From a bacterium BMS3Abin11 (GTDB lineage: Bacteria > Pseudomonadota > Gammaproteobacteria > BMS3Bbin11), in contig BDTD01000018.1 in NCBI GenBank assembly GCA_002897635.1, positions 1 to 64,000 of the forward strand: a stretch of DNA of 64,000 bases, written 5' to 3'. Within the stretch, counting starts at the first letter, position 1. The number at the start of each line of letters is the position of its first letter. Below the pieces are notes generated by a model that did not search any database, was not told the origin of the DNA, and was given only the letters and a program-made list of their open reading frames with translations. This document shows positions 8,930-31,781 of this stretch, one piece after another. Both the position numbers and the translations under genes were made by a program.

Positions 8930-8953
8930 CGGGCTTCCCTTCGTTGTACATGC

Positions 8954-9075: not shown

Positions 9076-9138
9076 TACGCCTGGCGGAGGACTAAGAATC
9101 GATCAATGAATTGAAATACTTACAACCGGAATAATGTT

Positions 9139-9154: not shown

Positions 9155-9203
9155 AGCTATAGATATTGACGAACTATCCCTCAAACAACAAGAGTTTCAG
9201 AAT

Positions 9204-10712: not shown

Positions 10713-10724
10713 GAGGAGCGGGAC

Positions 10725-11003
10725 ATGTCACTGGAGATTATCGAAAGTTGCACCAATTGTTGGGCCTGCGAATCCCAGTGTCCCGGTAACGCCATCTATG
10801 CGGCCAGGCCGCATTTCCTCATCGACCCAAAGAAATGCACCGAGTGCGAAGGCGATTACGCCGAGCCCCAGTGCGCCGGCATTTGCCCCATCGAGGGGGC
10901 CATCCTCGACAGCCTGGGCGAGCCGGCGAATCCCCCGGGCTCCCTGACGGGTATCCCGCCGGCGCGCATGGCGGAGGTCATGGCGGAGATCCAGGCGCGC
11001 TGA
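10725..11003 (+). CDS. 2[4Fe-4S] ferredoxin linked to nifB
   Basis: The 92-residue protein has two clusters of cysteines: CTNCWACESQCPGNA near the N-terminus and CTECEGDYAEPQCAGICP, the latter with the longer insert typical of FdxN-type nif ferredoxins. Such a ferredoxin follows nifB in many diazotrophs and probably supplies electrons for NifB or nitrogenase. It starts 12 bp after nifB behind a GAGGAG site. Confidence 0.9.
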   Translation: MSLEIIESCTNCWACESQCPGNAIYAARPHFLIDPKKCTECEGDYAEPQCAGICPIEGAILDSLGEPANPPGSLTGIPPARMAEVMAEIQAR

Positions 11004-11021
11004 TTGCGAGGAGTTTGAACG

Positions 11022-11624: not shown

Positions 11625-11652
11625 CGCCGGTGGACAGGGCAGTTCACAGATC

Positions 11653-12555
11653 GTGAACGCGTCGGAGGTAAAAGCGCGGGCCGTCGGTGCCTACCTGGGC
11701 TGCGCCGTTGGCGATGCCCTCGGCGCGACCGTTGAATTCATGACGCCGCGCGAAATCCAGACTCACTACGGGACACATGACGCCATTCGTGGCGGCGGCT
11801 GGCTCAGACTGAAACGTGGCCAGGTGACCGACGACACCACCATGGCCCTGGCCCTGGGGCGGTCGATTCTTGAAAGCGGCCGGGTGGACGCCCATGCCGC
11901 GGTTGAGGCCTTCGATGGCTGGATGCGGGCGAAGCCCATAGACATCGGCCATACCGTGCGCCGTGGCATCATCCACTTCCGGCAGACGGGGGAATCCTGT
12001 GTGCCGGAAAATGAGTACGATGCCGGCAACGGCGCCTGCATGCGCACCCTGCCGGTGGCCCTGGCGACCCATGGGCTGGATGCCACACAGGTGCGGGCTG
12101 CATCCCGCGCCCAGGCGCATGTCACGCACAACAATCATCTTTCCGATGCCGGCACCGAGTGTGTGATTGCCATGATCCAGGCGGCGCTGGACGGTGCCAC
12201 GATGACTGAGCTATTGCACGGGCCGGTGCGGGAGTTGGTAACGGCATTCCCGGAGTTTCGCTTCCGTGGCCGGCGCCGGGATAATCCCAGCGCCTATATC
12301 GTGGAGACCCTGCAGGCCGTGTTTCAGGCCCTGTTCGACACCAACACGTTCGAAGATTGTTTGGTAGATGTGGTCAACCGGGGCGGTGATGCCGACACCA
12401 CCGGCGCCATCGCCGGTATGATTGCGGGGGCCGTTTATGGCAGGGATACCATACCAGGGCGTTGGCTGAAGGCGTTGGATCGGGAGGTCCATGACGCCTG
12501 CCGGGATCAGGCACTGGCCATGCTGACCCTCTCCCCCAGATACGCCCAATGCTAG
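11653..12555 (+). CDS. draG: DraG, ADP-ribosyl-[dinitrogenase reductase] hydrolase
   Basis: DraG removes ADP-ribose from NifH and reactivates nitrogenase when nitrogen is short. The 300-residue protein begins near VNASEVKARAVGAYLGCAVG and has all metal-site blocks of the family: TDDTTMALA, GNGACMRTLP, HNNHLSDA and GGDADTTGAIAGM. The frame extends upstream to 11566 inside nifQ, but those residues do not resemble DraG, so GTG 11653 is chosen. It is the last gene of the nifB operon and converges on draT. Confidence 0.93.
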   Translation: MNASEVKARAVGAYLGCAVGDALGATVEFMTPREIQTHYGTHDAIRGGGWLRLKRGQVTDDTTMALALGRSILESGRVDAHAAVEAFDGWMRAKPIDIGHTVRRGIIHFRQTGESCVPENEYDAGNGACMRTLPVALATHGLDATQVRAASRAQAHVTHNNHLSDAGTECVIAMIQAALDGATMTELLHGPVRELVTAFPEFRFRGRRRDNPSAYIVETLQAVFQALFDTNTFEDCLVDVVNRGGDADTTGAIAGMIAGAVYGRDTIPGRWLKALDREVHDACRDQALAMLTLSPRYAQC

Positions 12556-12598
12556 CCTGAACATTGGTCTGGGATTCCCTTGGAAGCATTCGGGCTGA

Positions 12599-13510
12599 TC
12601 ACATGAGCGACATCTTCACTTCGTATACTCCTCCGATCACCACGTACTCATCTTCGCCCTTGAGCATGCCGGGCAGCAAGCGGGTAAAGAAAAAGATTTT
12701 CGACAACGGTACGTCGGCTTCCAGGATGTAGTCGCCGAACTCGTCGGCGCGCTCGCGGCAAGCGGTAAAGGAATTCAGGTTATTCAGCAGCACAATGCAC
12801 TCGCGTCGGCCGGTCTTTTCCAACACTTCATGTTCATCGAGCCGGTTAACGCCGCGGTACAGACGCAGGTGTTTCTGGTTCGTAAACTGTCGCGCCAGCT
12901 CTTCCTGGCAATAGCTGTAAAGCAGGTCCAGTTGCGCCTCCAGGGCGTTGGTGCTGTATAGGCCGGTTGCGCGCGCCTCCAGATAACCGCGATAGGCATC
13001 ACCGCCTGAGTCTTGCAGCGGTCCGTTGTGGTAACGAGGCAGCAACCCAAAGCGCGATTCCACCCATCCCTTGAGTACCGCACCTTCGCGGCTGTTCGGG
13101 TCAAAGTGCCAGCCGCGCGCCATGCGCAGATAGTCGGCCTTGTGACGCTTGTGACGCGAGTCTTTATTCCATCCCGCATCTTCCAGCGAGTCGAGGCGGA
13201 AGTGGACCGTCATGTAGTCCGTGAACAGCCGTGCCCGTGCCGCGGGCTCGTTGAGCGCGTCCAACAGCGGGAACAATTCTCGATGCAGTGCCTGTACGCC
13301 ATCGATCATCAATACCGTCGGATGGCGTTGGAAAGTCAGGCTGCCGAGTATCACTGCGGGGAGGTTGCAGCGGTTGATGGGCACGCGTGCGGCAGCAGGA
13401 AGGGAGGGCGGTTGGGCATCGCACGTCGTGCCGACCCGTTTGTTATCAACCCCACAGTCAACATCATTTTGTCGTACATGCGACGCCGGGTCGGTGTCTT
13501 TGGTGTTCAA
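12599..13510 (-). CDS. draT: DraT, NAD-dinitrogenase-reductase ADP-ribosyltransferase
   Basis: DraT transfers ADP-ribose from NAD to Arg101 of NifH to switch nitrogenase off. The 303-residue protein has CNLPAVILGSLTFQRHP, a LFTDYMTVHFRL segment, and the ADP-ribosyltransferase core LRLYRGVNRL, VLLNNLNSFTA and EADVPLSKIFF. TTG 13510 is preferred because AGGAG lies 7 nt upstream. The longer reading to 13558 would run into the nifH -24/-12 promoter. It is divergent from nifH and convergent with draG; draT and draG are not in one operon. Confidence 0.92.
   Translation of the reverse strand: MNTKDTDPASHVRQNDVDCGVDNKRVGTTCDAQPPSLPAAARVPINRCNLPAVILGSLTFQRHPTVLMIDGVQALHRELFPLLDALNEPAARARLFTDYMTVHFRLDSLEDAGWNKDSRHKRHKADYLRMARGWHFDPNSREGAVLKGWVESRFGLLPRYHNGPLQDSGGDAYRGYLEARATGLYSTNALEAQLDLLYSYCQEELARQFTNQKHLRLYRGVNRLDEHEVLEKTGRRECIVLLNNLNSFTACRERADEFGDYILEADVPLSKIFFFTRLLPGMLKGEDEYVVIGGVYEVKMSLM
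13441..13456. promoter_or_regulatory. NifA upstream activating site of nifH
   Basis: TGTTATCAACCCCACA matches TGT-N10-ACA, about 97 bp before the nifH -24 element. It lies inside the 5' part of draT coding sequence. Confidence 0.65.
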
Positions 13511-13552
13511 AATATCTCCTAAAAACAGATAGATAGCTGATATATCCGAATA

Positions 13553-13568
13553 TGGCACGGTGCTTGCA
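13553..13568 (+). promoter_or_regulatory. Sigma-54 promoter of nifHDK
   Basis: TGGCACGGTGCTTGCA is a perfect match to the -24/-12 consensus. Transcription would start about 12 bp after the GC, leaving a leader of about 43 nt to the nifH ATG with an AAGGAG site. Confidence 0.92.
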
Positions 13569-13619
13569 AAACAGAGCAGTAAGCAAGACTGACTCTGTAT
13601 CCCGTCTAAGGAGAACTGA

Positions 13620-14513
<894 letters not shown>

Positions 14514-14577
14514 CCGTTATTCGACGGCCCGACGTTCATCTACAGATCTGTGATGGCAATGACAAGAGAAACGGCTT

Positions 14578-16044
14578 ATGAGCACAATGACACGTAAAGA
14601 GACCGAGGCCCTCATCCAGGAGGTGCTTGAGGTCTATCCCGAGGAAGTAAAAAAGGACCGCGTGGAGCATCTGGCGGTCAATGGTTGCAGCCCGGGACAA
14701 GCTGAGAAGTGCATCATCTCGAACAAGAAGTCCCTGCCCGGGGTGATGACCGCCCGTGGTTGTGCTTATGCCGGTTCCAAGGGCGTGGTCTGGGGACCGG
14801 TCAAGGACATTATCCACGTCTCCCACGGCCCGGTGGGGTGCGGACAGTATTCCCGCGCCGGGCGCCGCAACTACTACACCGGGACCGTCGGTGTGAATAC
14901 CTTCGGCACCATGAACTTCACCTCGGATTTCCAGGAAAAGGATATCGTCTTTGGTGGTGACAAGAAGCTGGGCAAGCTCATCGATGAGATCGAAAGCCTG
15001 TTTCCCTTGAGCAAGGGCATTACCATCCAGTCTGAATGCCCCGTCGGCCTTATCGGTGACGATATCAGCGCGGTGGCCAAGGAGAAGTCCAAGGAATTAA
15101 ACAAGACAGTGGTACCCGTGCGCTGCGAGGGTTTCCGCGGCGTGTCCCAGTCGCTGGGGCATCACATCGCCAACGACTCCATACGCGATTGGGTGTTGGG
15201 CGCCCGCGACGATGATAACAGCTTCGAGGTTACACCTTATGACGTGGCCATCATCGGCGATTACAACATCGGTGGCGACGCCTGGGCCTCGCGCACCCTG
15301 CTGGAGGAGATGGGCTTGCGCGTGGTCGCCCAGTGGTCCGGTGACGGCACCCTGTCCGAGATCGAGCTTACCCCCAAGGTCAAACTCAACTTGCTGCACT
15401 GTTACCGGTCCATGAACTACATCTCCCGGCACATGGAAGAGAAGTACGGCATTCCGTGGATAGAATACAACTTCTTCGGCCCGACCAAGATCGAGGAGAG
15501 CCTGCGCAGGATCGCCGCATTTTTTGACGACAAGATCAAGCAGGGCGCCGAGCGCGTGATTGAAAAGTACAGGCCGGAATGCACGGCGGTGATCGAAAAA
15601 TACCGCCCGCGCCTGGAAGGCAAGAAGGTGATGTTATACGTCGGTGGTCTGCGTCCGCGTCACACCATCGGCGCCTACGAAGATCTGGGCATGGAGATCG
15701 TTGGAACCGGCTACGAGTTCGGCCACGACGACGATTACGACCGCACCCTGAAGGAAGCGGGTGACGCCACTTTGCTGTACGACGACCTCACCGGTTATGA
15801 ATTCGAGGAGTTCGTCAAGCGCATACGGCCGGATCTGATCGGCGCCGGAGTCAAGGAGAAGTATCTGTTCCAGAAGATGGGGATTCCGTTTCGCCAGATG
15901 CACTCCTGGGATTACTCGGGGCCCTATCACGGCTATGACGGCTTCGCCATATTTGCCCGTGACATGGACATGACCTTGAACAACCCTTGCTGGTCTCAGC
16001 TCACGGCGCCCTGGAAGCGCGAGCAACAGCAAGGTGGCGAGTAA
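14578..16044 (+). CDS. nifD: NifD nitrogenase MoFe protein alpha chain
   Basis: The 488-residue protein has P-cluster ligands Cys62 (RGCAYAG), Cys88 ([10 protein letters not shown]) and Cys154 ([11 protein letters not shown]), and FeMo-cofactor ligands Cys275 ([10 protein letters not shown]) and His442 ([13 protein letters not shown]), at the same numbering as the Azotobacter protein. The sequence is of the molybdenum type, not Vnf or Anf. It is intact and about 65 bp downstream of nifH. Confidence 0.98.
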
Positions 16045-16129
16045 GTGATGCGTACTTAATGCGTCGCCACTAAACCCTAACCCAATGCAACCGTAGTCCA
16101 CGAATTTGTGGTGCGGCAGGAAAGTTACC

Positions 16130-17701
16130 ATGAGCCAGAATGTAGACGACATCAAGCCCAGTTATCCCTTGTTCCGGGATGACGACTACAAGGAGAGCCT
16201 CGCCAGAAAGAGGGCGCTGTTCGAGGAATGTCATCCTCAGGAGAAGATCGATGAGGTCTTTAAGTGGACCACCACCGAGGAGTACCAGGAACTGAACTTC
16301 AAGCGCGAGGCCCTGACCATCGATCCGGCCAAGGCCTGTCAGCCGTTGGGAGCGGTGCTGTGCGCCCTGGGCTTCGAAAAGACCCTGCCCTATGTGCACG
16401 GCAGTCAGGGTTGCACGGCCTATTTCCGGACTTATTTCAACCGCCACTTCAAGGAGCCCATTGCCTGTGTGTCCGACTCCATGACTGAGGACTCGGCGGT
16501 GTTCGGCGGCCAGAAGAACATGATAGCCGGGCTTGCAAATGCCAGGGCCCTGTACAAGCCGGATATGATCGCCGTATCCAGCACCTGTATGGCAGAGGTG
16601 ATCGGCGACGATCTCAACGGCTTCATCGGCAACGCCAAGAATGCAGGTAGCATCCCCGAGGATTTTCCCACTCCGTTTGCGCATACGCCGAGTTTCGTCG
16701 GCAGCCACACCGCCGGTTGGGACAACATGTTGGAGGGGATTCTGCGCTACTTCACCCTGAACCACATGGAAGACAAAGAGGCCGGCAGTAATGGCAAGCT
16801 CAACATCGTGCCGGGCTTCGAGACCTATCTCGGTAACTTCCGCGTCATCAAGCGTATGTTGAACGAGATGGGCGTGGATCACAGCCTTCTCTCTGATCCC
16901 TCCGAGGTGCTGGATACACCGGCCGACGGCGAGTATCGCATGTACGCTGGCGGTACCACGCAGGACGAAATCAAGGACGCGCCCAATGCTATCGATACCC
17001 TGTTATTGCAGCCCTGGCAATCGGACAAGACCAAAAAATATGTCAAGAATACCTGGAACCACAAGGCGAGCGCAATCAACATCCCTATGGGTCTGGCGTG
17101 GACCGACGAATTCCTGATGCAGGTCTCGGCGCTTACCGGCAAGCCCATTCCGGCGTCCCTGGAAAAAGAGCGCGGCCGCCTGGTGGATATGATGACCGAC
17201 TCCCATACCTGGTTGCACGGTAAGAAATATGCCCTGTGGGGCGATCCCGATTTTGTTATGGGTATGAGCCGGTTCCTGATGGAACTGGGGGCGGAGCCGA
17301 CCCATGTACTTTGCAACAACGCCAGGAAGCGCTGGCGCAAGGCTATGGAGAAGATGCTGGAGGAATCACCCTATGGCCGGAACGCGAAGGTGTATGCCGG
17401 CAAGGATCTGTGGCACATGCGCTCGCTGGTGTTTACCGACAAACCGGATTTTATGATCGGTAATTCATACGGCAAGTTCATCCAGCGGGATACCCTGGCC
17501 AAGGGCAAGGAGTACGAGGTGCCGTTGGTGCGCATCGGCTTTCCGATCTTCGACCGGCATCACCTGCACCGCATGACGACCCTGGGCTATGAAGGCGCCA
17601 TGTACATCCTTACTACCCTGGTGAACGCGGTGCTGGAACGTCTGGACCAGGAGACCATGATCCTGGGGGTGACGGACTATAACTACGACCTCATCCGTTG
17701 A
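16130..17701 (+). CDS. nifK: NifK nitrogenase MoFe protein beta chain
   Basis: From ATG 16130 the protein has 523 residues. P-cluster ligands Cys70 (AKACQPLGA), Cys95 (GSQGCTAYF), Cys153 (STCMAEVIGDD) and Ser188 are at the usual places. The frame is open 8 codons further upstream, but the AGGAAAG site and family alignment favour MSQNVDD. With NifD it forms the catalytic heterotetramer. Confidence 0.98.
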   Translation: MSQNVDDIKPSYPLFRDDDYKESLARKRALFEECHPQEKIDEVFKWTTTEEYQELNFKREALTIDPAKACQPLGAVLCALGFEKTLPYVHGSQGCTAYFRTYFNRHFKEPIACVSDSMTEDSAVFGGQKNMIAGLANARALYKPDMIAVSSTCMAEVIGDDLNGFIGNAKNAGSIPEDFPTPFAHTPSFVGSHTAGWDNMLEGILRYFTLNHMEDKEAGSNGKLNIVPGFETYLGNFRVIKRMLNEMGVDHSLLSDPSEVLDTPADGEYRMYAGGTTQDEIKDAPNAIDTLLLQPWQSDKTKKYVKNTWNHKASAINIPMGLAWTDEFLMQVSALTGKPIPASLEKERGRLVDMMTDSHTWLHGKKYALWGDPDFVMGMSRFLMELGAEPTHVLCNNARKRWRKAMEKMLEESPYGRNAKVYAGKDLWHMRSLVFTDKPDFMIGNSYGKFIQRDTLAKGKEYEVPLVRIGFPIFDRHHLHRMTTLGYEGAMYILTTLVNAVLERLDQETMILGVTDYNYDLIR

Positions 17702-17722
17702 GGTCTTGACAGGGGTAGAACC

Positions 17723-17851
17723 ATGCCAAATGTGATGATACGCCAAAACGAAACCGGGGCATGGATGTTCTATGTGGCGAAGAAAGGTCAGTTTGCGGGC
17801 GAGGTGTTTGTGAGTCTTATCCGCGGAGGCGGTAGGGCCCGGTGTTGTTAA
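17723..17851 (+). pseudogene. nifT: Truncated nifT remnant
   Basis: Just after nifK a 42-codon frame reads MPNVMIRQNETG and then MFYVAKKGQ, matching the first third of NifT (normally about 70 residues: PSVMIRRN..., FYVAKKD...). It then departs into an Arg/Gly-rich tail ending RARCC and stops. Only 24 bp separate the stop from the next gene, so the normal C-terminal half is missing. NifT has no established essential role. It could be a short expressed peptide, but decay is more likely. Confidence 0.7.
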
Positions 17852-17875
17852 CTTACTATATAAGGAGGACGAGCC

Positions 17876-18079
17876 ATGGCTATGTATATTGTTGCTGATG
17901 AATGTATTTGCTGCGGCGACTGTGTGCCGGAATGCCCCACAGAGTCTATCGATGAGGGCAAGATTGTGTTCGAGATCAATGCCGAGACCTGTAAAGAGTG
18001 CGAGGGGGAGTACGATTCGCCGAAATGCGTCGAACTGTGTCCCATTGATAACTGCATTCTTCCCCTGGAGGCTGCCTGA
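17876..18079 (+). CDS. 2[4Fe-4S] ferredoxin (FdxN-like) in nif operon
   Basis: The 67-residue protein has ECICCGDCVPECPTESI and CKECEGEYDSPKCVELCP, giving two 4Fe-4S sites with the nif-type insert in the second. An AAGGAGG site lies 8 nt before ATG 17876. It probably carries electrons to nitrogenase or to cofactor assembly. Confidence 0.92.
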   Translation: MAMYIVADECICCGDCVPECPTESIDEGKIVFEINAETCKECEGEYDSPKCVELCPIDNCILPLEAA

Positions 18080-18090
18080 GGGGGTCTGCC

Positions 18091-18558
18091 ATGGGAGAGA
18101 TGGTTCAACGCGGTCTGCCCGAACCCCGGCCCTATGCGGAAGGCGATATGCTCGGCTCCATCCGCGTGGCCTGTGCATCCCGGGGCGATGAGCAAGTGGA
18201 TGGGCATTTCGGCTCCTGTCCCCTGTTTCTGATTTATCAGGTTTCTGCCGATAAGATTCGTCTCATCGATCTGCGTGTGACTGAAAACGCAGCTCAGACG
18301 GATGACGGAAGCGCCTACCGCGCTGGTTTGATCAAGGACTGCCATATCCTTTATATACAGTCCATCGGCGGGCCCGCCGCGGCCAAGGTGGTCAAGGCCG
18401 GGGTCCATCCGATCAAGCTTCTCGAAGGCGGCGAGGCCCCGGAAGTGCTGGCACAACTGCAAAAGGTGCTGGCCGGATCGCCGCCGCCATGGCTGGCCAA
18501 GGTCATGGGCGTGGTTCCGGAAGAACGCGTGCGCTACAGGCAGCCGGAGGCGCCATGA
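18091..18558 (+). CDS. nifY: NifY/NafY-type dinitrogenase cofactor-binding protein
   Basis: The 155-residue protein has a single NifX/NafY fold (about residues 22-130): [23 protein letters not shown], an EN..QTDDG loop and [17 protein letters not shown]. Family members bind FeMo-cofactor or its precursors and stabilise apo-nitrogenase. The place right after nifHDK(T) fits NifY. The stop overlaps the nifE start by 4 bp. Confidence 0.8.
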
Positions 18559-19967
18559 AGGCTAATGATATTGCTGAGCTGCTTGACGAGCCGGGGTGCG
18601 TCCACAACAAGAAGTCCAAATCAGGTTGTGCCCGGCCCACGCCCGGCACGGCCGCGGGCGGTTGCGCCTTCGACGGTGCCCAGATCGCCCTGTTGCCCAT
18701 CACCGATGTAGCCCATATCGTCCATGGTCCTATCGGTTGCGCCGGCAGTTCCTGGGACAACCGCGGCACGCGCTCCTCCGGGCCCGCCCTGTACCGGCTC
18801 GGCATGACCACGGACCTGACCGAGCAGGACATCATCATGGGTCGCGGCGAGAAGCGCCTGTTCCATTCCATCAAGCAGGCCATCGACGATTACCAACCGG
18901 CGGCGGTGTTCGTCTACAACACCTGCGTACCGGCGCTGATCGGCGACGACATCGAGGCGGTTTGCAAGGCGGCTGCAGAGCGCTGGGGCGTGCCCGTGGT
19001 ACCGGTGGATGCGGCCGGTTTCTACGGTACCAAGAACCTGGGCAACCGCATCGCCGGTGAGACCATGCTGAAGTACGTAGTGGGTCGCCGCGAACCGGAT
19101 CCCCTGCCGCCGGAGGCGCAACGCCCCGGCATCAAGGTGTACGATATCAATTTGATCGCTGAATACAACATCGCCGGTGAGTTCTGGCACGTGCTGCCGT
19201 TGCTGGACGAGCTGGGGCTGCGAGTACTGTGTACCCTGTCCGGTGATGCACGCTATCGTGATGTGCAGATCATGCACCGTGCCGAGGTGAACATGATGGT
19301 CTGTTCCAAGGCCATGATCAACGTGGCGCGCAAGCTCCGGGAACAATACGGCACGCCCTGGTTCGAGGGCAGCTTCTACGGTATCGCCGACACCTCCCAC
19401 GCCCTGCGCGAGTTCGCGCGCCTCATCGGCGATGGGAATCTGACCGCACGCACTGAGGCCCTCATCACCCGGGAGGAGGCGCTTATCCATGCCAGGCTCG
19501 AACCCTGGCGTGAACGTTTACAGGACAAATGGGCGCTGCTTTATACGGGTGGCGTGAAGTCGTGGTCGGTGGTCTCGGCGCTGCAGGACCTCGGTATAGA
19601 CGTGGTGGCCACCGGTACCCGGAAATCCACCGAGGAGGACAAGGCGCGCATCCGCGAACTCATGGGCGAGGACGCCAGGATGATCGAAGACGGCAGCCCC
19701 AAGGAGTTGCTGGAGATCGTCCGCGAATACCGCGCCGACATCCTCATCGCTGGCGGGCGCAACATGTACACGGCGCTGAAGGCGCGCCTGCCGTTCCTGG
19801 ACATCAACCAGGAGCGTGAATTCGGTTACGCCGGTTATCAAGGCATGCTGGAGCTGGCGCGCCAACTCACACTCACCATGGAGAGCCCGGTGTGGGATGC
19901 AGTGCGCAGGCCGGCCCCATGGACCGTATCTTCCAGGGCGGGCCGGGCGGTGGTCGGCGGAGGCTGA
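18555..19967 (+). CDS. nifE: NifE FeMo-cofactor scaffold alpha-like subunit
   Basis: From ATG 18555 the protein has 470 residues and is homologous to NifD. It has a Cys-rich N-terminus ([26 protein letters not shown]), [11 protein letters not shown], and [13 protein letters not shown]. The FeMo-cofactor His ligand of NifD is not used in NifE. NifEN receives NifB-co and matures it. It is coupled to nifY (ATGA) and lies 1 bp from nifN. Confidence 0.96.
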
Positions 19968-19968
19968 C

Positions 19969-21375
19969 ATGGCTAAGATCATCAAACGCAACAAGGCCCT
20001 GTCCGTCAGTCCTTTAAAGACCAACCAGGCAATGGGCGCGTCGCTGGCCTTTCTGGGGATCAACCGCGCCATTCCCATGTTGCACGGCTCCCAGGGTTGC
20101 GCCGCCTTTGCCAAGGTGTTCTTCGTACGCCACTTCCGCGAGCCTATTCCACTACAGACCACTGCCATGGACCAGGTGAGTACCGTAATGGGTGCTGAAG
20201 ACAACATCATCGAAGGGTTGAAGACCCTCTGCGAAAAGGCTGAACCGGCGCTGATCGGTGTGCCGACGACGGGGCTATCGGAGACCCAGGGTATCGATAT
20301 GAAACCGGTGGTGAAGGTGTTTCGCCAGCGCTATCCTCAATTCTCTTCCGTAAAGGTCGTGCCTGTCAGCACCCCCGACTTCAGCGGCTGCCTGGAATCG
20401 GGCTTTGCCGCCGCCGTGCGTGCCCTGATTGAGGAGCTGGTGCCCCAGGCCGAAGAGGCCGGCACCCAACCCGGGCGGCAACAGCGACAGGTTAATGTAC
20501 TGGCGAGTTCCCATTTGACGCCCGGCGATGTGGAAGTGCTCAAAGGAATCATCGAGGGTTTTGGGTTGCGCCCCGTGCTTATCCCCGATCTGTCGGATTC
20601 CCTCGACGGTCGTCTCACGGAGTTGGAGTTCAGTCCCATTACCGTGGGCGGTACACCGGTATCGGAGTTCGCCACACTGGGAGACGCCGCCGCAAGCCTG
20701 GTGATAGGGCCCTCGCTGGCCAAGGCTGCGGATATTCTAAGGCAGCGCACCGGCGTACCGGAGCACCGCTTCGACCACTTGATGGGGCTGGAGGCCGTTG
20801 ACGAATTACTCATGACACTGGCAGCAATCAGCGGCAACCCGGTACCGGAATGTTTACAACGCCAGCGCGCCCAACTCCAGGACGCCATGTTAGATACCCA
20901 TTTCATGTTGGGCCAGGCGCGCTTCGCTATTGCTGCGGACCCGGACCTGCTGAATGCCTTCGGTCAATTTTTAAACGGCATGGGGGCCGAGGTGGTGGCG
21001 GTGGTGGCGTCGAGTCGTGCACCGGTGCTGGAGCGTATCCCAGCGAGAGATGTAACGATCGGCGATCTGGAAGATCTGGAGTACATAGCGAAGGATCGAA
21101 ATGCGGAATTGCTGATTGGCAATTCCCATGCTGCGGTGTTGGCGGAGCGCCTGGGGCTGCCGCTGTTGCGCGCCGGTTTTCCGCAGTACGATCGGCTAGG
21201 CGGTTACCAGCGCAACTGGATCGGATACCGCGGGATACGCCAGGCGCTGTTCGACCTGGCTGATATCCTGCTCGCCAGCAACCGCCATGAGATAAAACCC
21301 TACCGGTCTATTTACGCACAGAAACGCCAGGAGGTATTCAGCGATGGGATTGCAGCGGTGTCTGAGAATGGTTAA
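19969..21375 (+). CDS. nifN: NifN FeMo-cofactor scaffold beta-like subunit
   Basis: From ATG 19969 the 468-residue protein has [20 protein letters not shown] and [18 protein letters not shown], as in NifN and NifK. The open frame extends 51 codons upstream inside nifE, but [11 protein letters not shown] is the normal NifN start. It pairs with NifE as the assembly scaffold. Confidence 0.96.
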
Positions 21376-21829
21376 CAGCGATACCAGTACGAATACAGCG
21401 AATAAGGCGTTGAAACTGGCGTTCGCCACCACGGACATGAAACATGTGGACCAGCACTTCGGTTCGGCGCGGGTGTTCGCTATCTATGCGGTGGACATAG
21501 AGCATGCCAAATTGCTCGAAGCGGCCCAGTTCGACAGAGTGGAACAAGACGGTCACGAGGACAAACTGGTTGCCAAGATCGCCATGTTGGAAGGTTGCGC
21601 CGCGGTCTATTGTCAGGCGGTCGGATCATCCGCTATCCGCCAGTTATTGGCGCACACCATCCAGCCGGTCAAGGTCGTCGCAGGCGTCGCCATCGCCGAT
21701 CTGATTGGGTCCGTTCAGGATATGTTGCGCGCCGGTACGTCGGTGTGGCCGGCCAGGACCGTCGTTCGCCGGCAGGAGTCGGACACGAGGCGCTTTGACG
21801 CGATGGAGGCGGAAGGGTGGGAGGAATGA
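21344..21829 (+). CDS. nifX: NifX cofactor carrier protein
   Basis: The 161-residue protein has a NifX core: [27 protein letters not shown], then [19 protein letters not shown] and [14 protein letters not shown]. NifX carries cofactor precursors between NifB, NifEN and NifDK. Two starts are possible: ATG 21344, 9 nt after AGGAGG and inside nifN, or ATG 21368, overlapping the nifN stop. The first is chosen because of the strong ribosome site. Confidence 0.9.
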
Positions 21830-21885
21830 GTTCCGTGATTCGTGATTGGTTTCTTGAGACTTTTACTTTTTAAGGAGAACGTGCA

Positions 21886-22359
21886 ATGACTGAAGGCGCA
21901 GTAGCAGTTGCCGAAGACGATCCAATATTGGAATCGGAATTTATGAAAGAAATTGTAAAGCAGATGCAGGCGCTTGACACCTGCGGCAACTATGATGAGT
22001 GGTCGGTGGTCCGTATCCTCGCCCCCTTTGTATTGACCGGGGAGCGAAAGCAGGATGTCTCCGCAACCGACGATCCCGATGAGATCATCGTGCTGCGGGT
22101 GAAGGCGTTCTATAACGCCATCGCTTCACTGGTTGAGAAGGAATGCGGTCTGAAGGCCGTCCTCATGGTTGCCCCCATTTATGAAGGCTCCGGCCGCGCC
22201 GTCATCACCACGGGCAAGTTGGTGGTGATGGACAAGCCCCTGGGCAATGTACACCGTTTCGGTTTCCCGAGCCTGTCGAAGATGAAGGATGAGGCCGACA
22301 AGCTACTTTCCGTGGCTCTCGAAATCATTGGCAAGTACCCTGGAGCGGCGGGTATGTAG
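21886..22359 (+). CDS. NifX-associated nitrogen fixation protein (DUF269)
   Basis: The 157-residue protein belongs to the conserved family that follows nifX in many diazotrophs. Visible segments are ESEFMKEIVKQMQALDTCG, NYDEWSVVRILAPFVL and PLGNVHRFGFPSL. Its precise role is not established. An AAGGAGA site precedes the ATG. Confidence 0.93.
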   Translation: MTEGAVAVAEDDPILESEFMKEIVKQMQALDTCGNYDEWSVVRILAPFVLTGERKQDVSATDDPDEIIVLRVKAFYNAIASLVEKECGLKAVLMVAPIYEGSGRAVITTGKLVVMDKPLGNVHRFGFPSLSKMKDEADKLLSVALEIIGKYPGAAGM

Positions 22360-22384
22360 AGAAGATGAGCCCCGGTAAGTGAAC

Positions 22385-23548
22385 ATGTCTAGAGCTAAAC
22401 ATACCGTCGTAATCGATGACACCACCTTGCGTGACGGGGAACAATCGGCGGGGGTGGCGTTCAGCGTGCATGAAAAGCTGGACATCGCCAGCCGCCTGGA
22501 TGCTCTGGGGGTGCCGGAACTTGAGATCGGTGTCCCCGCCATGGGTGAGGAAGAGTGCGAAAGTATACGTGCCGTGGTCAATTCAGGTGTTAATGCACGA
22601 CTGCTGGTGTGGAGCAGAATGTGCGCCGATGACTTGATCGCCTGCCGTCATCTCGGTGTGCAGATGGTAGACCTGTCCATCCCGGTGTCCGACCAGCAGA
22701 TCCGCAACAAGCTGGGGAAAGATCATGGCTGGGTGTTGGACGCGATTGCCCGGCATGTTCCGCAGGCGTTGGATATGGGTCTTGAGGTATGTGTTGGAGG
22801 GGAGGACGCCTCGCGCGCGGATCCCGAGTTTCTGTTACGCGTAGCCGAAGCCGCACAGGCGAGTGGGGCGCGGCGCTTCCGCTTCGCCGATACCGTCGGG
22901 ATCATGGAACCGTTTGGGGTGCTGGCGCGCATACGCCGCCTGCGGGCCGCTGTCGATCTGGAGATTGAAATGCACGCCCACGACGACCTGGGTCTGGCTA
23001 CTGCCAATAGCCTGGCGGCGGCCCTGGCCGGAGCAACGCACCTGAATACCACAGTCAACGGTCTGGGCGAACGGGCCGGCAACGCAGCACTGGAAGAGGT
23101 GGTGTTGGGTCTGCAACAACTTTACGGTTTTGAGGTCGGTATTGATCTGCAGGATTATCCGGCGTTGTCGCACCGGGTTGAAACTGCGGCTGGACGGCCA
23201 TTGTCGTGGCAGAAGAGTTTGGTGGGCGAGGGGGCGTTTACTCACGAAGCGGGACTCCACGTGGACGGTTTACTCAAAGACCCCTTGAACTACCAGGGCG
23301 TGAACCCGGCACAACTGGGCCGGCAACATCGGCTCGTATTAGGAAAACACTCCGGCACCCGGGCTGTCATGCAAGCTTATTCCGATTTGGGCCTGTCGCT
23401 TACCCGCGAGGAAGCGGCGCTGATGCTCGCCCAGGTGCGGGTCTTTGTGACCCGCGCCAAGCGTCTCCCGACACCTCATGATCTGGAGAGCTTCCACCGG
23501 GACCTGCGGGGTGGCGGCGTAAGGAGCAGTTTCATCCCGAACGGATGA
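22385..23548 (+). CDS. nifV: NifV homocitrate synthase
   Basis: NifV condenses acetyl-CoA and 2-oxoglutarate to homocitrate, the organic part of FeMo-cofactor. The protein has the DRE-TIM start IDDTTLRDGEQSAGVAF, the metal site EMHAHDDLGLATAN, the GLGERAGNA loop and the C-terminal GKHSGTRAV. ATG 22385 is chosen; GTG 22379, two codons upstream, is also possible. It is about 387 residues, normal for NifV, and the last gene of the island. Confidence 0.95.
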   Translation: MSRAKHTVVIDDTTLRDGEQSAGVAFSVHEKLDIASRLDALGVPELEIGVPAMGEEECESIRAVVNSGVNARLLVWSRMCADDLIACRHLGVQMVDLSIPVSDQQIRNKLGKDHGWVLDAIARHVPQALDMGLEVCVGGEDASRADPEFLLRVAEAAQASGARRFRFADTVGIMEPFGVLARIRRLRAAVDLEIEMHAHDDLGLATANSLAAALAGATHLNTTVNGLGERAGNAALEEVVLGLQQLYGFEVGIDLQDYPALSHRVETAAGRPLSWQKSLVGEGAFTHEAGLHVDGLLKDPLNYQGVNPAQLGRQHRLVLGKHSGTRAVMQAYSDLGLSLTREEAALMLAQVRVFVTRAKRLPTPHDLESFHRDLRGGGVRSSFIPNG

Positions 23549-23579
23549 CTTTAAGGCAAAGAGCAAGACCCTTATACTT

Positions 23580-23597
23580 CACGCCGTTAACGGCGTG
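23580..23597 (+). terminator. Perfect palindrome after nifV
   Basis: CACGCCGTTAACGGCGTG is an 18-bp perfect palindrome 31 bp after the nifV stop. No T-run follows, so it may be a weak terminator or a protein site. It lies at the right edge of the GC-rich island. Confidence 0.4.
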
Positions 23598-23666
23598 CGA
23601 CCTGACCCTTATACCTTAATACTCTACTTATACTTTATATTCACACCAAAAAAAGGAGACTATCAA

Positions 23667-24029
23667 ATGATCAAGAAGATACCTGATCTACCAGATAATG
23701 CCCTCGGCTTCACTGCAAAAGGGACGGTAACTGTAAATGACTACGAGTCCATCATAATTCCAGCGGTGGAGGAACTGTTCTCTCACCAGAGCAAGATTCG
23801 GTTCCTTTACCACCTCGGTGAAGAGTTCACAGGATTCGAAGTCGGCGCCATGTGGGATGATATAAGATTAGGCCTGAAGCACTTCACAGGCTGGGAGAGA
23901 ATGGCAGTCGTATCGGATATCGAGTGGATACGGATAGCCATCAAAATCTTTGGACTTGGGATCCCAGGGCATGTCCGTGTATTTCATAACAGCGAATTTG
24001 CTGAAGCAACACAGTGGATCAGCGAATAG
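23667..24029 (+). CDS. SpoIIAA-like (STAS-related) protein
   Basis: The 120-residue protein from ATG 23667 (AAAGGAG upstream) matches the SpoIIAA-like family: GFTAKGTVTVNDYESIIIPAVEEL, KIRFLYHLGEEFTGFEVGAMWDD and GWERMAVVSDIEWIR. These small proteins have a STAS-like lipid- or partner-binding fold with no established role. It follows nifV but has its own ribosome site and lower GC, so it need not belong to the nif system. Confidence 0.8.
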   Translation: MIKKIPDLPDNALGFTAKGTVTVNDYESIIIPAVEELFSHQSKIRFLYHLGEEFTGFEVGAMWDDIRLGLKHFTGWERMAVVSDIEWIRIAIKIFGLGIPGHVRVFHNSEFAEATQWISE

Positions 24030-25746: not shown

Positions 25747-26826
25747 TTATGTTTGTCTCTTCACAAGCTCCATTCCTTCACCTTTTATAAACAGGAGCCA
25801 GATTAAGGAAATTATAAAAATCAGCGCACCAGAGAGGACAATTACGGCGCCCGGATCCCTGTTGATAGTCAGAATAGCATATGGCCTATAGGTGAGCCCG
25901 GAGAAAACAAGCTTGAGCCCGTCGAAAGCAAGGGGTGTCTTGTCTGGGTATTGCAACAAAAACCAGCCAGTCACCAGGAACTTCTCTCCCTTGTATACCT
26001 TTACTTCCAGCGCAGGGTTTCGGTATTGTTTCGAGGCCGAATACACTTTCCCCTTACTGTCTCTGGCAAAGTCTGGAATGAGGCCTTCCAGTTTGAGCGT
26101 ATAACCCCTGCTGCTCGTAACACTCTTTTCATGAAGCTTGATCTTGATTATCTCCTGGGTACCGTTGCCTGAAAGTTCAAACTTCATACTCTCGGGGGCC
26201 TCACCGTGGTGGGTGATATAGACCGCATTACCCTGATACAGGAGAGGTTCATTTAATCTCACCACCTTGTCCTTGACGACTCCTTTGTCCCGTATGAGAC
26301 TGAGGTAGGCATCCATTCTTTGCATGTCGCCATTTTTGGTAAATGCAACGTCCAGTTTGTTCAGCCGTAGCGATAGCTCACTGCTCTGTGGCATGGGGAT
26401 GCTGCTGCCTTCGAAAAGGCGGTTGTCCATTGTCCGAAACCCGGAGGCGCTGGATACCAGGTGCCCCAAAAGACCGATGATGAAGCCCAGATGGATGGCC
26501 TGGGAAAGTATTCTTCTGGGTTTGATCCTGGCCGCGTCCCGTCGAGGTCTTAACATAAACACGATCGAGTCTACAGTGCAGACAATAGTATTTACCACAA
26601 AGAGAGCTAGCAGGATAAGGAGGAGAAATATCCACCATGAAGCGGTGAGATTGTTCAGGCCCGCGCCAAAAAGCCAGTAAAAGAATATTTCCAGATCTAT
26701 CGCCCCGAGGGCTTTTGGAGAACTGGAAAGCAGAATGGTTCCCGTCAGCACATCGATTGTAATGAGAAGGGACAATACAACCGCCAGGCGGGTGGAAGTG
26801 AAGAATTTCCAGATACTCTTCATCAT
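25747..26826 (-). CDS. resB: ResB/Ccs1-family cytochrome c biogenesis protein
   Basis: The 359-residue protein has three N-terminal membrane helices (about 10-30, 60-85, 110-130), a large periplasmic domain (about 135-325) and a final helix (about 330-350), the layout of ResB/Ccs1. These proteins, with CcsA, export heme and attach it to apocytochromes c in system II. It follows ccsA by 3 bp. It is shorter than Bacillus ResB but similar to compact forms seen in Desulfo- and Nitrospira-type bacteria. Confidence 0.85.
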   Translation of the reverse strand: MMKSIWKFFTSTRLAVVLSLLITIDVLTGTILLSSSPKALGAIDLEIFFYWLFGAGLNNLTASWWIFLLLILLALFVVNTIVCTVDSIVFMLRPRRDAARIKPRRILSQAIHLGFIIGLLGHLVSSASGFRTMDNRLFEGSSIPMPQSSELSLRLNKLDVAFTKNGDMQRMDAYLSLIRDKGVVKDKVVRLNEPLLYQGNAVYITHHGEAPESMKFELSGNGTQEIIKIKLHEKSVTSSRGYTLKLEGLIPDFARDSKGKVYSASKQYRNPALEVKVYKGEKFLVTGWFLLQYPDKTPLAFDGLKLVFSGLTYRPYAILTINRDPGAVIVLSGALIFIISLIWLLFIKGEGMELVKRQT

Positions 26827-26829
26827 GCC

Positions 26830-27612
26830 TTACATCCCGTGAGAACTTTTCAGGAAGATGCTAACCCCAAGGTAGGTAAACATCACCAGGGCAAAGCCGA
26901 TTATGGCCATGACAGACACTGTTTTTCCCCGCCACCCCTTAAGCATGCGTGTGTGTAATACGCCAACATAATAAAACCAGAGCAGCAGTGACGCCGCACT
27001 CTTTGATTCCCATAGCCAGTAATTGCCCCATGCCAGATAGCCCCAGATTGCGCCAAGCAGCATGGAACCCGAGAAGAATGCAAATCCCCACAGAATCGCC
27101 CGGTAAGTAATGTTTTGATATATCCCGAGTTCGGTGCCTGTACCCGTCTTTTCCCTGAGGAGATAAAATGCCCCGGCCGCTGCCGCAAGGGTGAAAAGCG
27201 CGTAGGCAAAGAAGGAAGTCACGACGTGGATTTCGAACCACCATGTCTTGAGGACAAGAGGCAGGCGATATACACCTGAATCAGAAAAGGCGGCAAGAAG
27301 GAGTGCGAGAAAAATGACAGGAATGGTCAGCGTGTCTGTTGTCCTGAGCCTGTAACGAAACAGAAGTATCGTATTCAATACAGCGATTGACCAGCTGAAA
27401 AAGAGCAGGGTCTCGAATCGCCCGGCCATGGGGGCATGGCCTGTTTCCATTATTCTCAGAGCCAGGACAATGGTGAGGAAAGCCAGGGCGAGTATCAGTA
27501 TGTATGTGGATACACGCTGCAATGTACGACGTGATTCGTTTCGAGCGAGAACATGGCTGATGAAGCCTGCGCCATAAAAGGCTATGGACAGCCAGAGAAA
27601 TATCTCCGTCAT
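26830..27612 (-). CDS. ccsA: CcsA/ResC-family heme handling protein
   Basis: The 260-residue protein has eight predicted membrane helices and the tryptophan-rich heme motif WGYLAWGNYWLWESK near residue 190, with conserved histidines at about 84-90 and near the end. CcsA carries heme across the membrane for cytochrome c synthesis. ATG 27612 overlaps the kamA stop as TAATG; a GTG three codons upstream is an alternative. It forms a pair with ResB. Confidence 0.88.
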   Translation of the reverse strand: MTEIFLWLSIAFYGAGFISHVLARNESRRTLQRVSTYILILALAFLTIVLALRIMETGHAPMAGRFETLLFFSWSIAVLNTILLFRYRLRTTDTLTIPVIFLALLLAAFSDSGVYRLPLVLKTWWFEIHVVTSFFAYALFTLAAAAGAFYLLREKTGTGTELGIYQNITYRAILWGFAFFSGSMLLGAIWGYLAWGNYWLWESKSAASLLLWFYYVGVLHTRMLKGWRGKTVSVMAIIGFALVMFTYLGVSIFLKSSHGM

Positions 27613-28679
27613 TATTTCCACGGCTCCCTGTTCCCAATGGGAGTGACCTGGGGGTAACGGTAAATCTTGTTCTCATAATTCTTTACTATTACCTCTACTT
27701 CATTAATTTCTATAACCGTGTCCGAAGGGAGCAGCGAAATCTTTCCACCCCCGCCAGGAAGATCAATAATGAACTTTGGTATAGCAAACCCTGATATATG
27801 CCCCTGCAGGCCCCTGAGTATATCCAGACCGCACTCAACGCTTGTCCGCATGTGATCAGTGCCACGTGTCAAATCGGCCTGATACAGATAATACGGCTTT
27901 ACCCTGATGGCAATGAGTTTTTGCATCAGCTCTTTGATAGTCTCCAGGTCGTCATTAATCCCTTTAAGGAGGACTGTCTGGCTACCCAGTGGAATACCCG
28001 CATCGGCGAGCCTGTTGCAGGCGGTCGTCACCTCCCTGGTTATTTCTCGTGGATGAATAAAGTTTATGTTTATATAGAGGGGGTGATATTTTTTAAGCAT
28101 CCTGCAGAGATTTTTTGTTATACGTTGTGGGAGGGCGCCTGGCATACGGGTCCCGATTCTGATTATCTCGATATGCGGTATATCCCGTACCTTTTCCAGT
28201 ATCTCTTCAAGTACTTTATCTTTTAGTATTAACGGGTCTCCACCCGAGAGTATTACATCTTTAATCTCTTCATGGTCCCTGATGTAATCAATACCCCTGC
28301 GAACCATCTTCCTTGATATGGGTCTCTTTCCTGCAAGTCGCTTCCTTGTGCAGAATCTGCAATAGATTGCACACTGATTTGTAACCATCAATAGCGCCCT
28401 GTCTTCATAGCGATGCACAATAGACGGGACAGGGCTATCACCTTCTTCATTGAGGGGGTCATCCACACCTACGTCATCATAAATCTCACGTTCATCAGGT
28501 ACTACTTGTTTGTATATAGGGTCATCCTTTTTCTGTATGAGCGCCGTAAAGTAGGGATTTATCTTTGCCGGATATTCTGCGACGACTTTATCGGTCTTCC
28601 CGTTCTCAAGATCAAATACCGTCGAGATTTGATCGGCCTCTTTAAGGCTCTTTTTTAATATATGTTGCCAGCGTTCCAT
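27612..28679 (-). CDS. kamA: Lysine 2,3-aminomutase-family radical SAM enzyme
   Basis: The 355-residue protein has the SAM cluster motif CAIYCRFC in VTNQCAIYCRFCTRKR, LSGGDPL and PLYININFIHPREIT, all as in KamA. The CRFCTRKR form is closer to KamA/AblA than to EpmB, which modifies EF-P. The likely reaction is conversion of L-lysine to beta-lysine using PLP and SAM. The PLP-binding PGGGGK motif is at about residue 307. It lies between an ATP-grasp-like gene and ccsA-resB; the usual partner AblB acetyltransferase is absent. Confidence 0.9.
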   Translation of the reverse strand: MERWQHILKKSLKEADQISTVFDLENGKTDKVVAEYPAKINPYFTALIQKKDDPIYKQVVPDEREIYDDVGVDDPLNEEGDSPVPSIVHRYEDRALLMVTNQCAIYCRFCTRKRLAGKRPISRKMVRRGIDYIRDHEEIKDVILSGGDPLILKDKVLEEILEKVRDIPHIEIIRIGTRMPGALPQRITKNLCRMLKKYHPLYININFIHPREITREVTTACNRLADAGIPLGSQTVLLKGINDDLETIKELMQKLIAIRVKPYYLYQADLTRGTDHMRTSVECGLDILRGLQGHISGFAIPKFIIDLPGGGGKISLLPSDTVIEINEVEVIVKNYENKIYRYPQVTPIGNREPWK

Positions 28680-28712
28680 AGTCCTATACCGTTATTTAAC
28701 CGTTTAGATTGT

Positions 28713-30239
28713 TCAGCTGCTTGCAACGACGGTTATTACCGAATCCGTCATTCCGTGTATAAGCTTTTTATCAAGGGGACATACAGTAGCCAGTATGCCC
28801 GCCAACTTTACATCTTTTCTATACACAAAATAGTATGGACAGAGACGTACCCGCCCCTTCATTGTTTTTATATCGCCTGTGGACTGGTCTAAATAGTTGA
28901 CCTCAACATGTCGTCCCTTATGATATTTCTGGAGTATATGCGGAGTTCTATAAAAATCTTCGAGTGTCCTGTCTATGACATCTCCCCATTCTTTTTTTGA
29001 TACGTCATGTCCGACCACAACACCTCTACTCCCCCACGCCAGCTCTGAAAACCCGGATGGCTTTATAACAAACTCCTTCCTTTCGCTTTGTGTCGCCTGT
29101 TTCAGTTCTGCCCAGCAGGCGACAGGTCGTTTGCCGACTTTAAGCCCTGGAATTATCCCGTAAGGAGGTAGCTCCGCCGGATCGAGTATCCATGTAGGGG
29201 GTAAAATCTTGTGTAGTACAGAAAATACCTTTTCCCCTAATGTAGTCATCCAGTATTCCCTGAGCATGGGGTGATGAAACAGGGCATACAGCATTTTCTC
29301 CTCGAGAAAGGGTTTAAAGGGCGGGGTTATAGACACCCGGTTTTTTTTGGCGCTATACATAATCAGTTCAGCTTTCGGGATATTCATCAGATCGAACAAC
29401 TCAAAGAATCTATAAAGGACGTCGATCTTGCATCGGTTCTCTCCCGATTTAATGTACAGGCCTTCCTCCGTAAATATAATATCCTCGGGTTTAATAGTTG
29501 ATACATTTACGCCAACTTCCCGCATGGCCCCTGCCAGCCACTCCATCTCAGACCGGTAATCCCTGGATTCCTCGGAGACCACAATAGCAATGACTGGATC
29601 ATCTATCCGGGGGGCGGCAGACTTAAGCATATTCAGGAAGCCATCTGCCATTCCCTCTCCCTCACCGACTATCTTATTATCTGTTTCTATAAACAAGGTG
29701 GATGAATAGGCACTGTTGAGGCTTCCAGTAATACCCATACCACCCGGGACGGCATCTAATTCTGTCGCAACCATTCCGTCCTTCGTCAGTATAATGTCAG
29801 GTCTTATGATACCGGGAAGCAGGTTTTTCATCCTGTTCATACGGGCATATTCTATAAGGGACTGAGGTTTCCCCTGATCCAGATATCCGGCAATCCATTC
29901 TGGTTGCTTTCCATGTATGCTTTGATAATAGAGATTGTTTGAGGCGCTATAAAACAGATAAAGACATCTGCCAAGAGACTCGATAAAGGTGAGTTCTTTT
30001 TTTTCCATAAAGAAAGGTTCTGGGGATATATTCCAGTTAATGTAGACTCCGTCCTCAATCAACCTGTCCTTAATATATAGGCACTGCTCTTTATATGCTG
30101 TGTGTCTGATCATTTTGTTGTTTGGGCGATGGTTGTTATTGGTCATCGAAGAAGACGGTCGTCCGACAGATACCGTCCCTGGGTTCGTGAGCGGAATTTC
30201 TCTGATGTATTTCGAGCTGTGATATTCCCGTTTCTGCAC
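28713..30239 (-). CDS. Putative ATP-grasp ligase next to kamA
   Basis: The protein has up to 508 residues. Its first 40 residues look non-conserved, and internal ATGs (30146, 30113) may be the real start. It has ELDAVPGGMGITGSLN near residue 165 and a C-terminal part with EFVIKPSGFSELAWGSRGV, HILQKYHKGRHVEV and MKGRVRLCPYYFV, which resemble the Lys-containing ATP clamp and metal-binding segments of ATP-grasp enzymes. The match is by pattern only. Position 33 bp upstream of kamA suggests it could join beta-lysine to another molecule; that is inference. Confidence 0.55.
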   Translation of the reverse strand: MQKREYHSSKYIREIPLTNPGTVSVGRPSSSMTNNNHRPNNKMIRHTAYKEQCLYIKDRLIEDGVYINWNISPEPFFMEKKELTFIESLGRCLYLFYSASNNLYYQSIHGKQPEWIAGYLDQGKPQSLIEYARMNRMKNLLPGIIRPDIILTKDGMVATELDAVPGGMGITGSLNSAYSSTLFIETDNKIVGEGEGMADGFLNMLKSAAPRIDDPVIAIVVSEESRDYRSEMEWLAGAMREVGVNVSTIKPEDIIFTEEGLYIKSGENRCKIDVLYRFFELFDLMNIPKAELIMYSAKKNRVSITPPFKPFLEEKMLYALFHHPMLREYWMTTLGEKVFSVLHKILPPTWILDPAELPPYGIIPGLKVGKRPVACWAELKQATQSERKEFVIKPSGFSELAWGSRGVVVGHDVSKKEWGDVIDRTLEDFYRTPHILQKYHKGRHVEVNYLDQSTGDIKTMKGRVRLCPYYFVYRKDVKLAGILATVCPLDKKLIHGMTDSVITVVASS

Positions 30240-30353: not shown

Positions 30354-30992
30354 TTAACTGCTTCGTCGATAGACCGTGAGCGCCAGTGATTTGGCCAGTG
30401 CTTCCGCCTGCTGTTCCATAACATTGCTAATGGCCTGTGTGATAGCATCCCGGGCCAGGGTGAGCAGATGGGGGATGCGTACTGACCGGCTTAACATACG
30501 AGTTTCCCTGGCATAGAGCATGAGTATGTCCTGTAGCAGGTCCCGGAACTGCGACTCGCTATAAAGCTCATTCACTGCTGCGCGAAATGAACTGACGTTT
30601 TGCCATTGGGTAAGGATGCGGTAACTTGTTTGCAGCAGTAGTTCAATACGCTGCTGCCGATAGCGTTCAATGTCCTGATACTGGATCTGGATATCGATAG
30701 GAAACACGGATGCTTTGCGCAAAAAGGTTTGATCGATTTTCCGTGCTTCCTGCAACAGGGCAGCCACATGGGCAGGGCCAGGTTTTATTCCGGATTGAAG
30801 CACTGTGGCTGCCCGGGTGATGACCATCCGGTCTTTCTCCACTTCCTTGCCGACATTAATGTCCAGAAAAGACTGAAAGGCAGGCAATGCCAATCTGAAC
30901 AGGGTGTAAGCTTTAAGGCCTTCCACAGTGCGCTGACTGAAGTCCTCCATCATAACGCGGTTCATGGCACAAAGTACGTTGACTCTGTTCAC
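30354..30992 (-). CDS. Hypothetical helical protein paired with a methyltransferase
   Basis: The 212-residue protein is almost entirely helical by composition and has no cysteine cluster, signal peptide or membrane helix. GTG 30992 follows GGCGGAAC; ATG 30965 is an alternative. It lies 15 bp after the methyltransferase gene, so the two are likely cotranscribed. I do not recognise the family. Confidence 0.6.
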   Translation of the reverse strand: MNRVNVLCAMNRVMMEDFSQRTVEGLKAYTLFRLALPAFQSFLDINVGKEVEKDRMVITRAATVLQSGIKPGPAHVAALLQEARKIDQTFLRKASVFPIDIQIQYQDIERYRQQRIELLLQTSYRILTQWQNVSSFRAAVNELYSESQFRDLLQDILMLYARETRMLSRSVRIPHLLTLARDAITQAISNVMEQQAEALAKSLALTVYRRSS

Positions 30993-31007
30993 GGTTCCGC
31001 CAGGTGA

Positions 31008-31781
31008 TTAGGTATCGAGAGACTTCATCGCCGTGTGATAGCCTATCATGCCGCCTAACAGGGACTGGCTTGAAACCTCCTCAAATCCCACATCACGAAG
31101 TAAGTCTGAGAACTCATCAGCAGAATAAAACATGCGCAGGGCATTGATGAAATATTGCTTGCAGCCACGGGTCATGGTGGAGCTTCGAAATAGCAGGGCG
31201 GTAAAGTTCAGACAAAAACGCAGGTAGGAATAATAGCTCAACTCCACGAATTTGTTGGCCGGGCGCAGCATATCGCAGTGATAGAAGCGCCCACCCGGTT
31301 TCAGCACCCGCCTGATTTCAAGGCAGACATCTATGATGCGTAAATGTCGCGAGGCATACTGCAGGGTGACCACATCGAAATGATTGTCGGGGAAGGGCAG
31401 GGTATGGACATCGCCGATAGTACTGTCGATATGCATTCCGAGCTTGTTAGCCAATTCATACCCCACCGCCTGCATGGCTTTGCTGCGGTCCATAGCGTGA
31501 ACCTGCAGATCTGGCTGTTTTTTCAAGAGTGCGATACCAATAGCGTTGGTTCCGGCACAAACATCCAGCACCTTCTGCTTACTTTGCACGTCTATGGTAG
31601 AGAGAAAACGGTTGCGAAAGAAGGGCCAGAGACCAAGGCTGGCCACATGATTGGCGTGGTCATAATAATGGGCGACATCAGAAAAGACATCATCCAGTTC
31701 TTCTACCCAAACTTGCTTGAATTGGTGCTCGCGATTATCCTCTTTTGTGGCAAACTGGATTGCGCGCTCACCGTTGGCCAT
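31008..31781 (-). CDS. SAM-dependent methyltransferase, UbiE/COQ5-like
   Basis: The 257-residue protein has SAM-binding motif I VLDVCAGTNAIGIALL, an acidic loop HAMDRSKAM, motif LPFPDNHFDVVTLQYASRHL and the post-core RRVLKPGGRFYHCDML. UbiE/COQ5 enzymes methylate quinone rings. This one differs in the motif I (CAGTN instead of GGGTGD), so the substrate may not be a quinone. It starts the pair with the helical gene. Confidence 0.8.
   Translation of the reverse strand: MANGERAIQFATKEDNREHQFKQVWVEELDDVFSDVAHYYDHANHVASLGLWPFFRNRFLSTIDVQSKQKVLDVCAGTNAIGIALLKKQPDLQVHAMDRSKAMQAVGYELANKLGMHIDSTIGDVHTLPFPDNHFDVVTLQYASRHLRIIDVCLEIRRVLKPGGRFYHCDMLRPANKFVELSYYSYLRFCLNFTALLFRSSTMTRGCKQYFINALRMFYSADEFSDLLRDVGFEEVSSQSLLGGMIGYHTAMKSLDT

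Follow-up and report, generated by a model that had tools for sequence, protein, structure and literature searches.

The best known product of free beta-lysine is the osmolyte N-epsilon-acetyl-beta-lysine, which is formed via ablA/ablB (PMC3543383). In this system a lysine 2,3-aminomutase (AblA) carries out the first step and a GNAT acetyltransferase (AblB) the second. In the EpmB/EpmA system a KamA-family enzyme is followed by ATP-dependent ligation of beta-lysine, which is carried out by EpmA, a relative of lysyl-tRNA synthetase. On the side of ATP-grasp ligases, homoglutathione synthetase, YgiC/YjfC and Cp1B are solved enzymes coupling an acid to a small amine (PMC12568646). Here we analyzed a locus within 64,000 nucleotides of contig BDTD01000018.1 of the gammaproteobacterium BMS3Abin11, a stretch referred to as the window. 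Like AblA/AblB the locus encodes a probable lysine 2,3-aminomutase as the first enzyme, and like EpmB/EpmA it would follow a KamA-family enzyme with an ATP-dependent ligation of beta-lysine. The second enzyme, however, is a predicted ATP-grasp ligase and neither a GNAT acetyltransferase nor a relative of lysyl-tRNA synthetase. The initial annotation of the locus had already placed an ATP-grasp ligase where AblB would be expected, and indeed no AblB-type acetyltransferase was found among the annotated neighbors in the inspected neighborhoods of the ligase-KamA pair.

Table 1. Positions, strand and assignment basis of the four genes in the window.
Feature	Position	Strand	Basis
ResB-like protein	25747-26826	-	PF05140, 80 bits
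CcsA-type cytochrome c assembly protein	26830-27621	-	PF01578
KamA-family radical SAM enzyme, probable lysine 2,3-aminomutase	27612-28679	-	TIGR00238 and 2a5h alignment
Predicted circularly permuted ATP-grasp ligase, 508 aa	28713-30239	-	AlphaFold/Foldseek, metal motif

The four open reading frames are tightly packed on one strand and lie where they had been located before (Table 1). The kamA/ccsA junction reads CCGTGGAAATAATGACGGAG and confirms the reported TAATG overlap between the stop codon of KamA and an ATG of CcsA; alternatively, CcsA could start from the GTG at 27621. Pfam and NCBIfam searches with the open reading frames of the window returned the ResB, Cytochrom_C_asm/CcsB-like and KamA families. 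CcsA plus ResB, the components of system II cytochrome c biogenesis, are encoded at 25747–27621 (PF01578, PF05140), with CcsA reaching 147 bits on the NCBIfam model TIGR03144 and thus staying under its cut-off of 188. Upstream of the ligase (30354–31781) lie genes for a UbiE-like methyltransferase and for a protein of 212 aa that belongs to no family; the sister species retains both.

The four-gene block had been described as differing in style from its surroundings. This does not apply to its overall GC content of 0.43–0.50, which is backbone-like; the region that deviates is the nif-like cluster at about 4–24 kb, with a GC content of 0.54–0.64 versus 0.43–0.51 elsewhere in the window. A difference does exist inside the block, where KamA and the ligase (GC 0.45, GC3 0.48) are AT-richer than CcsA, ResB and the two upstream genes (GC3 0.57–0.59). 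The nif-like cluster (about 4000–24000) contains NifN-, NifX- and NifV-like open reading frames as read by eye and is probably a transferred nitrogen-fixation island.

KamA passes the TIGR00238 cut-off (NCBIfam) and aligns to the Clostridium lysine 2,3-aminomutase 2a5h with an E-value of 2.9e-106. Residues C103/C107/C110, R112, D269, D306 and K313 correspond to C125/C129/C132, R134, D293, D330 and K337 of 2a5h. The protein therefore retains the radical SAM CxxxCxxC motif, the PLP lysine and the two substrate aspartates, and every lysine 2,3-aminomutase residue checked against 2a5h is kept, supporting the earlier assignment as a lysine-type KamA. The epsilon-amine of lysine is held by D293 and D330, two positions at which glutamate 2,3-aminomutase carries different residues. 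On the NCBIfam equivalog models KamA scored 417 bits for AblA (cut-off 525) and 241 bits for EpmB (cut-off 369). Judged from its residues, the enzyme is likely to yield free beta-lysine.

An AlphaFold model of the window ligase (pTM 0.78) matched human glutathione synthetase in Foldseek with an E-value of 3e-16 and a probability of 1.00, and the model of a Nitrospina homologue (pTM 0.86) gave 2.4e-16 and 1.00. Both models matched human, plant and yeast glutathione synthetases, homoglutathione synthetase, glutathionylspermidine synthase and YgiC/YjfC; Cp1B was matched by the window model only. The nearest solved fold is that of the eukaryotic-type glutathione and homoglutathione synthetases (8fbz, 2hgs, 3kal), matched over near full length with a TM of about 0.6 and E-values to 2e-16. 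Like these enzymes the ligase is predicted to be a circularly permuted ATP-grasp protein with spaced metal-binding acidic residues, but it is paired with KamA, most of its hosts are without a known gamma-glutamylcysteine ligase, and its identity to any characterized ligase amounts to about 10–15%. The motif consists of R146-x-D148 and E160-x-D162 separated by 11 residues, a spacing equal to that of R316-x-D318 and E330-x-N332 in E. coli Gss and near that of YgiC. Further stretches of the ATP site, compared by eye only, follow in the same order (EEK and IKP in the ligase, NK and VKP in Gss and YgiC). Gss and YgiC/YjfC share the fold and couple an acid to a small amine; the ligase differs from them by D162 in place of Asn, by the absence of an amidase domain, by KamA as partner gene and, in its C-terminal segment, by an invariant CxxxKKxxHGM where Gss has Arg. 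The fungal ATP-grasp ligase Cp1B (9cjn) resembles it in having the same fold and no detectable sequence identity to characterized ligases, but acts in the E-64 pathway, where it couples a dicarboxylic acid to an amino acid without an aminomutase.

Every Pfam and NCBIfam score of the ligase stayed under the cut-off, with CP_ATPgrasp_2 and GSP_synth appearing sub-threshold only (best 15.7 bits versus a cut-off of 32). Neither the ligase sequence nor its profile retrieved a solved structure, and a comparison of the ligase profile with the Gss profile gave no match. An alignment of 18 ligase homologues contains 99 invariant columns. Because of the modeled fold, the motif spaced as in Gss and YgiC and the failed sequence-only searches we assign the protein to a new subfamily of circularly permuted ATP-grasp amide ligases of the glutathione synthetase/glutathionylspermidine synthase type. 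The former designation as ATP-grasp-like, which an absence of the fold in structure prediction would have contradicted, is thus borne out by two models and the metal motif. Residues 1–42 were modeled with low confidence, are unmatched in the other phyla and, compared with the two near relatives, show differences that are not enriched at third codon positions; the true start may lie inside the first 42–52 codons. Weak matches to the ligase profile (frames of about 260–406 aa) were also seen in one family of small-genome Pseudomonadota, perhaps as a remote offshoot of the circularly permuted ATP-grasp enzymes.

Relatives of the ligase occur on 22 genome contigs, which belong to Gammaproteobacteria, Nitrospirota, Nitrospinota, Poribacteria, Armatimonadota and Verrucomicrobiota. 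Nitrospirota and Nitrospinota are the phyla of the main nitrite oxidizers. Among 246 Nitrospirota genomes the ligase is present in 122 and a clear KamA in 135; 120 genomes hold both genes, 117 of them adjacent on one strand (Fisher p 3e-50, in a test that takes no account of relatedness, many of the genomes being close kin). The two Nitrospirota genomes with the ligase only have it near the edge of a contig, which breaks off on the side expected for KamA. A KamA on the same strand follows the ligase in Gammaproteobacteria (few genomes), Nitrospirota, Nitrospinota and Armatimonadota (one genome). Since the armatimonadotal neighbor is a different KamA with 34% identity, function and not just common descent seems to hold the pair together. 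All genomes reached via ligase loci (23 entries, one duplicated) carry a KamA-family gene, which is unlinked to the ligase in Poribacteria, Verrucomicrobiota and three Nitrospirota. Distances between the ligases mirror those between the KamA proteins (r 0.79; 0 of 2000 permutations as high). Ligase and KamA are thus associated far beyond chance, and the real unit consists of these two genes. Of the four-gene block proposed in the initial annotation, the ligase/KamA pair recurs widely, but all four genes were seen together in one genus only. Downstream of KamA, Nitrospirota usually carry a dCTP deaminase of a long (about 375 aa) or short (183 aa) form, which is absent from the window.

A strong ligase match was obtained in only one of 399 sampled Pseudomonadota genomes, namely the window's own, and within the genus the ligase is present in two of seven genomes. 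The gammaproteobacterial ligases are nested in a supported Nitrospirota group, and the gammaproteobacterial KamA sequences fall into the same supported group of ten in the KamA tree, of which, with its very long branches, only the inner part was used. Both trees suggest that the ligase and KamA of the window were probably taken up together from Nitrospirota. A transfer had been suspected for the whole block; the trees support it for the ligase-KamA pair.

We consider it reasonably probable, at roughly 0.6, that the two genes form a module in which beta-lysine produced by KamA is linked to a carboxylic acid by the ligase through an amide bond, with the window copy derived from Nitrospirota. KamA would rearrange L-lysine to free beta-lysine, a step that is well supported by its residues, from which the identity of the product is predicted. 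The ligase would then turn a carboxylate into an acyl phosphate and form an amide bond, most likely with the amino group of beta-lysine, because glycine, beta-alanine and spermidine fill that place in related enzymes. That the ligase uses beta-lysine, and as the amine, we infer from the fold, the linkage of the genes and this analogy. Alternatively, the carboxylate could come from beta-lysine, or the ligase could act first and KamA second. Against the two-gene module as a whole stand the distance to characterized ligases with its empty sequence-only searches, the KamA score under the AblA cut-off, the separate location of KamA in Poribacteria, Verrucomicrobiota and three Nitrospirota, and the kinship of the Nitrospirota genomes, for which the co-occurrence test is uncorrected.

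In all ten Nitrospinota loci holding both genes a glutaredoxin (PF00462, GST_N_3) is located between ligase and KamA, and the same arrangement was found in 14 of 15 Nitrospirota gaps of more than 200 bp that were read, a sample next to which 68 more pairs have gaps of 200–1000 bp. This position, together with glutathione synthetases as the nearest fold, would fit a module that makes a low-molecular-weight thiol, a cysteine-containing beta-lysine conjugate serving the intervening glutaredoxin. The hosts point in the same direction: GCS2, Glu_cys_ligase and GshA gave no match in 30 of the 31 non-proteobacterial ligase hosts, and BshC is absent from all 31, which also rules out bacillithiol. GshB-type matches over the cut-off were found in six of these 31 hosts, one of them strong. 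However, gaps below 200 bp contain no glutaredoxin, so that the window branch and other Nitrospirota are without it at this place; the gammaproteobacterial hosts already possess GshA and GshB, cysteine as a substrate of the ligase is purely hypothetical, and other systems can also reduce glutaredoxins. We therefore regard a thiol product as rather unlikely, and the same low probability applies to the more specific proposal that ligase, glutaredoxin and KamA make and use a previously unknown beta-lysine-containing redox thiol replacing glutathione in nitrite-oxidizing Nitrospirota and Nitrospinota. Glutathione and gamma-glutamylcysteine themselves were considered as general acid partners of the ligase and are unlikely, since most hosts are without known gamma-glutamylcysteine ligases; where these are missing, neither compound would be the partner unless it is made by another enzyme.

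The product might also be a compatible solute, an amide analogue of N-epsilon-acetyl-beta-lysine. That compound is itself an osmolyte (PMC3543383), and several hosts of the pair are marine. The pair, however, is found in half of the sampled Nitrospirota genomes, groundwater ones among them, and papers on marine nitrite oxidizers name betaine, ectoine, trehalose or sucrose and no beta-lysine compound, so that we consider a solute improbable. Transfer of beta-lysine by the ligase onto EF-P or another protein, in place of EpmA, is very unlikely. In E. coli the KamA-family enzyme EpmB does provide beta-lysine for EF-P, and certain ATP-grasp enzymes modify proteins, but the nearest folds work on small molecules and peptides, KamA lies far under the EpmB cut-off, and no EF-P gene was seen next to the ligase or the unlinked poribacterial KamA. 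A gene beside the latter, suspected from its length to encode EF-P, encodes a cyclophilin.

The two remaining genes of the block, ccsA and resB, adjoin the pair in the window and the sister species only, as seen in 42 neighborhoods, and a relative from the Acidiferrobacteraceae carries the pair without them. The contig of the window also carries a complete Ccm (system I) cluster of the host (C18, 100000–116000), and the host genome has a second ResB/CcsA pair (C6, 80000–94000); we therefore treat CcsA and ResB of the window simply as neighbors of the pair. A CcsA-like neighbor in one Nitrospirota group was rejected as support for a cytochrome link: it is divergently oriented, lies beside genes of haem-synthesis size and is HemX-like as judged from length and order. 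That all four genes act as one system joining beta-lysine chemistry to cytochrome c assembly, as the initial annotation had implied, is hardly credible: the close packing with its TAATG overlap speaks for it, as does the finding that within the genus this CcsA is confined to the two genomes that carry the ligase, but the arrangement was seen at no locus outside the genus, kamA and ccsA are separated by a gap in the sister species, the KamA/ligase and CcsA/ResB halves are unlike in base composition, and the host has its own Ccm cluster and other ResB/CcsA pair.

All parts of the two-gene module belong to known superfamilies, but the combination of genes and the ligase subfamily appear to be undescribed. 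No description of an aminomutase paired with an ATP-grasp enzyme was found in the openly available literature, and genome papers on Nitrospina and Nitrospirales, in the passages found, speak of glutaredoxins and of other osmolytes without naming the ligase-KamA module. The presence of the pair in Nitrospinota and in about half of the sampled Nitrospirota predicts a beta-lysine metabolite that is as yet undescribed, and points to the enzyme family that would be responsible for it. It also opens to experiment the question of how bacteria that seemingly are without known gamma-glutamylcysteine ligases, yet possess glutaredoxins, manage their thiol chemistry.
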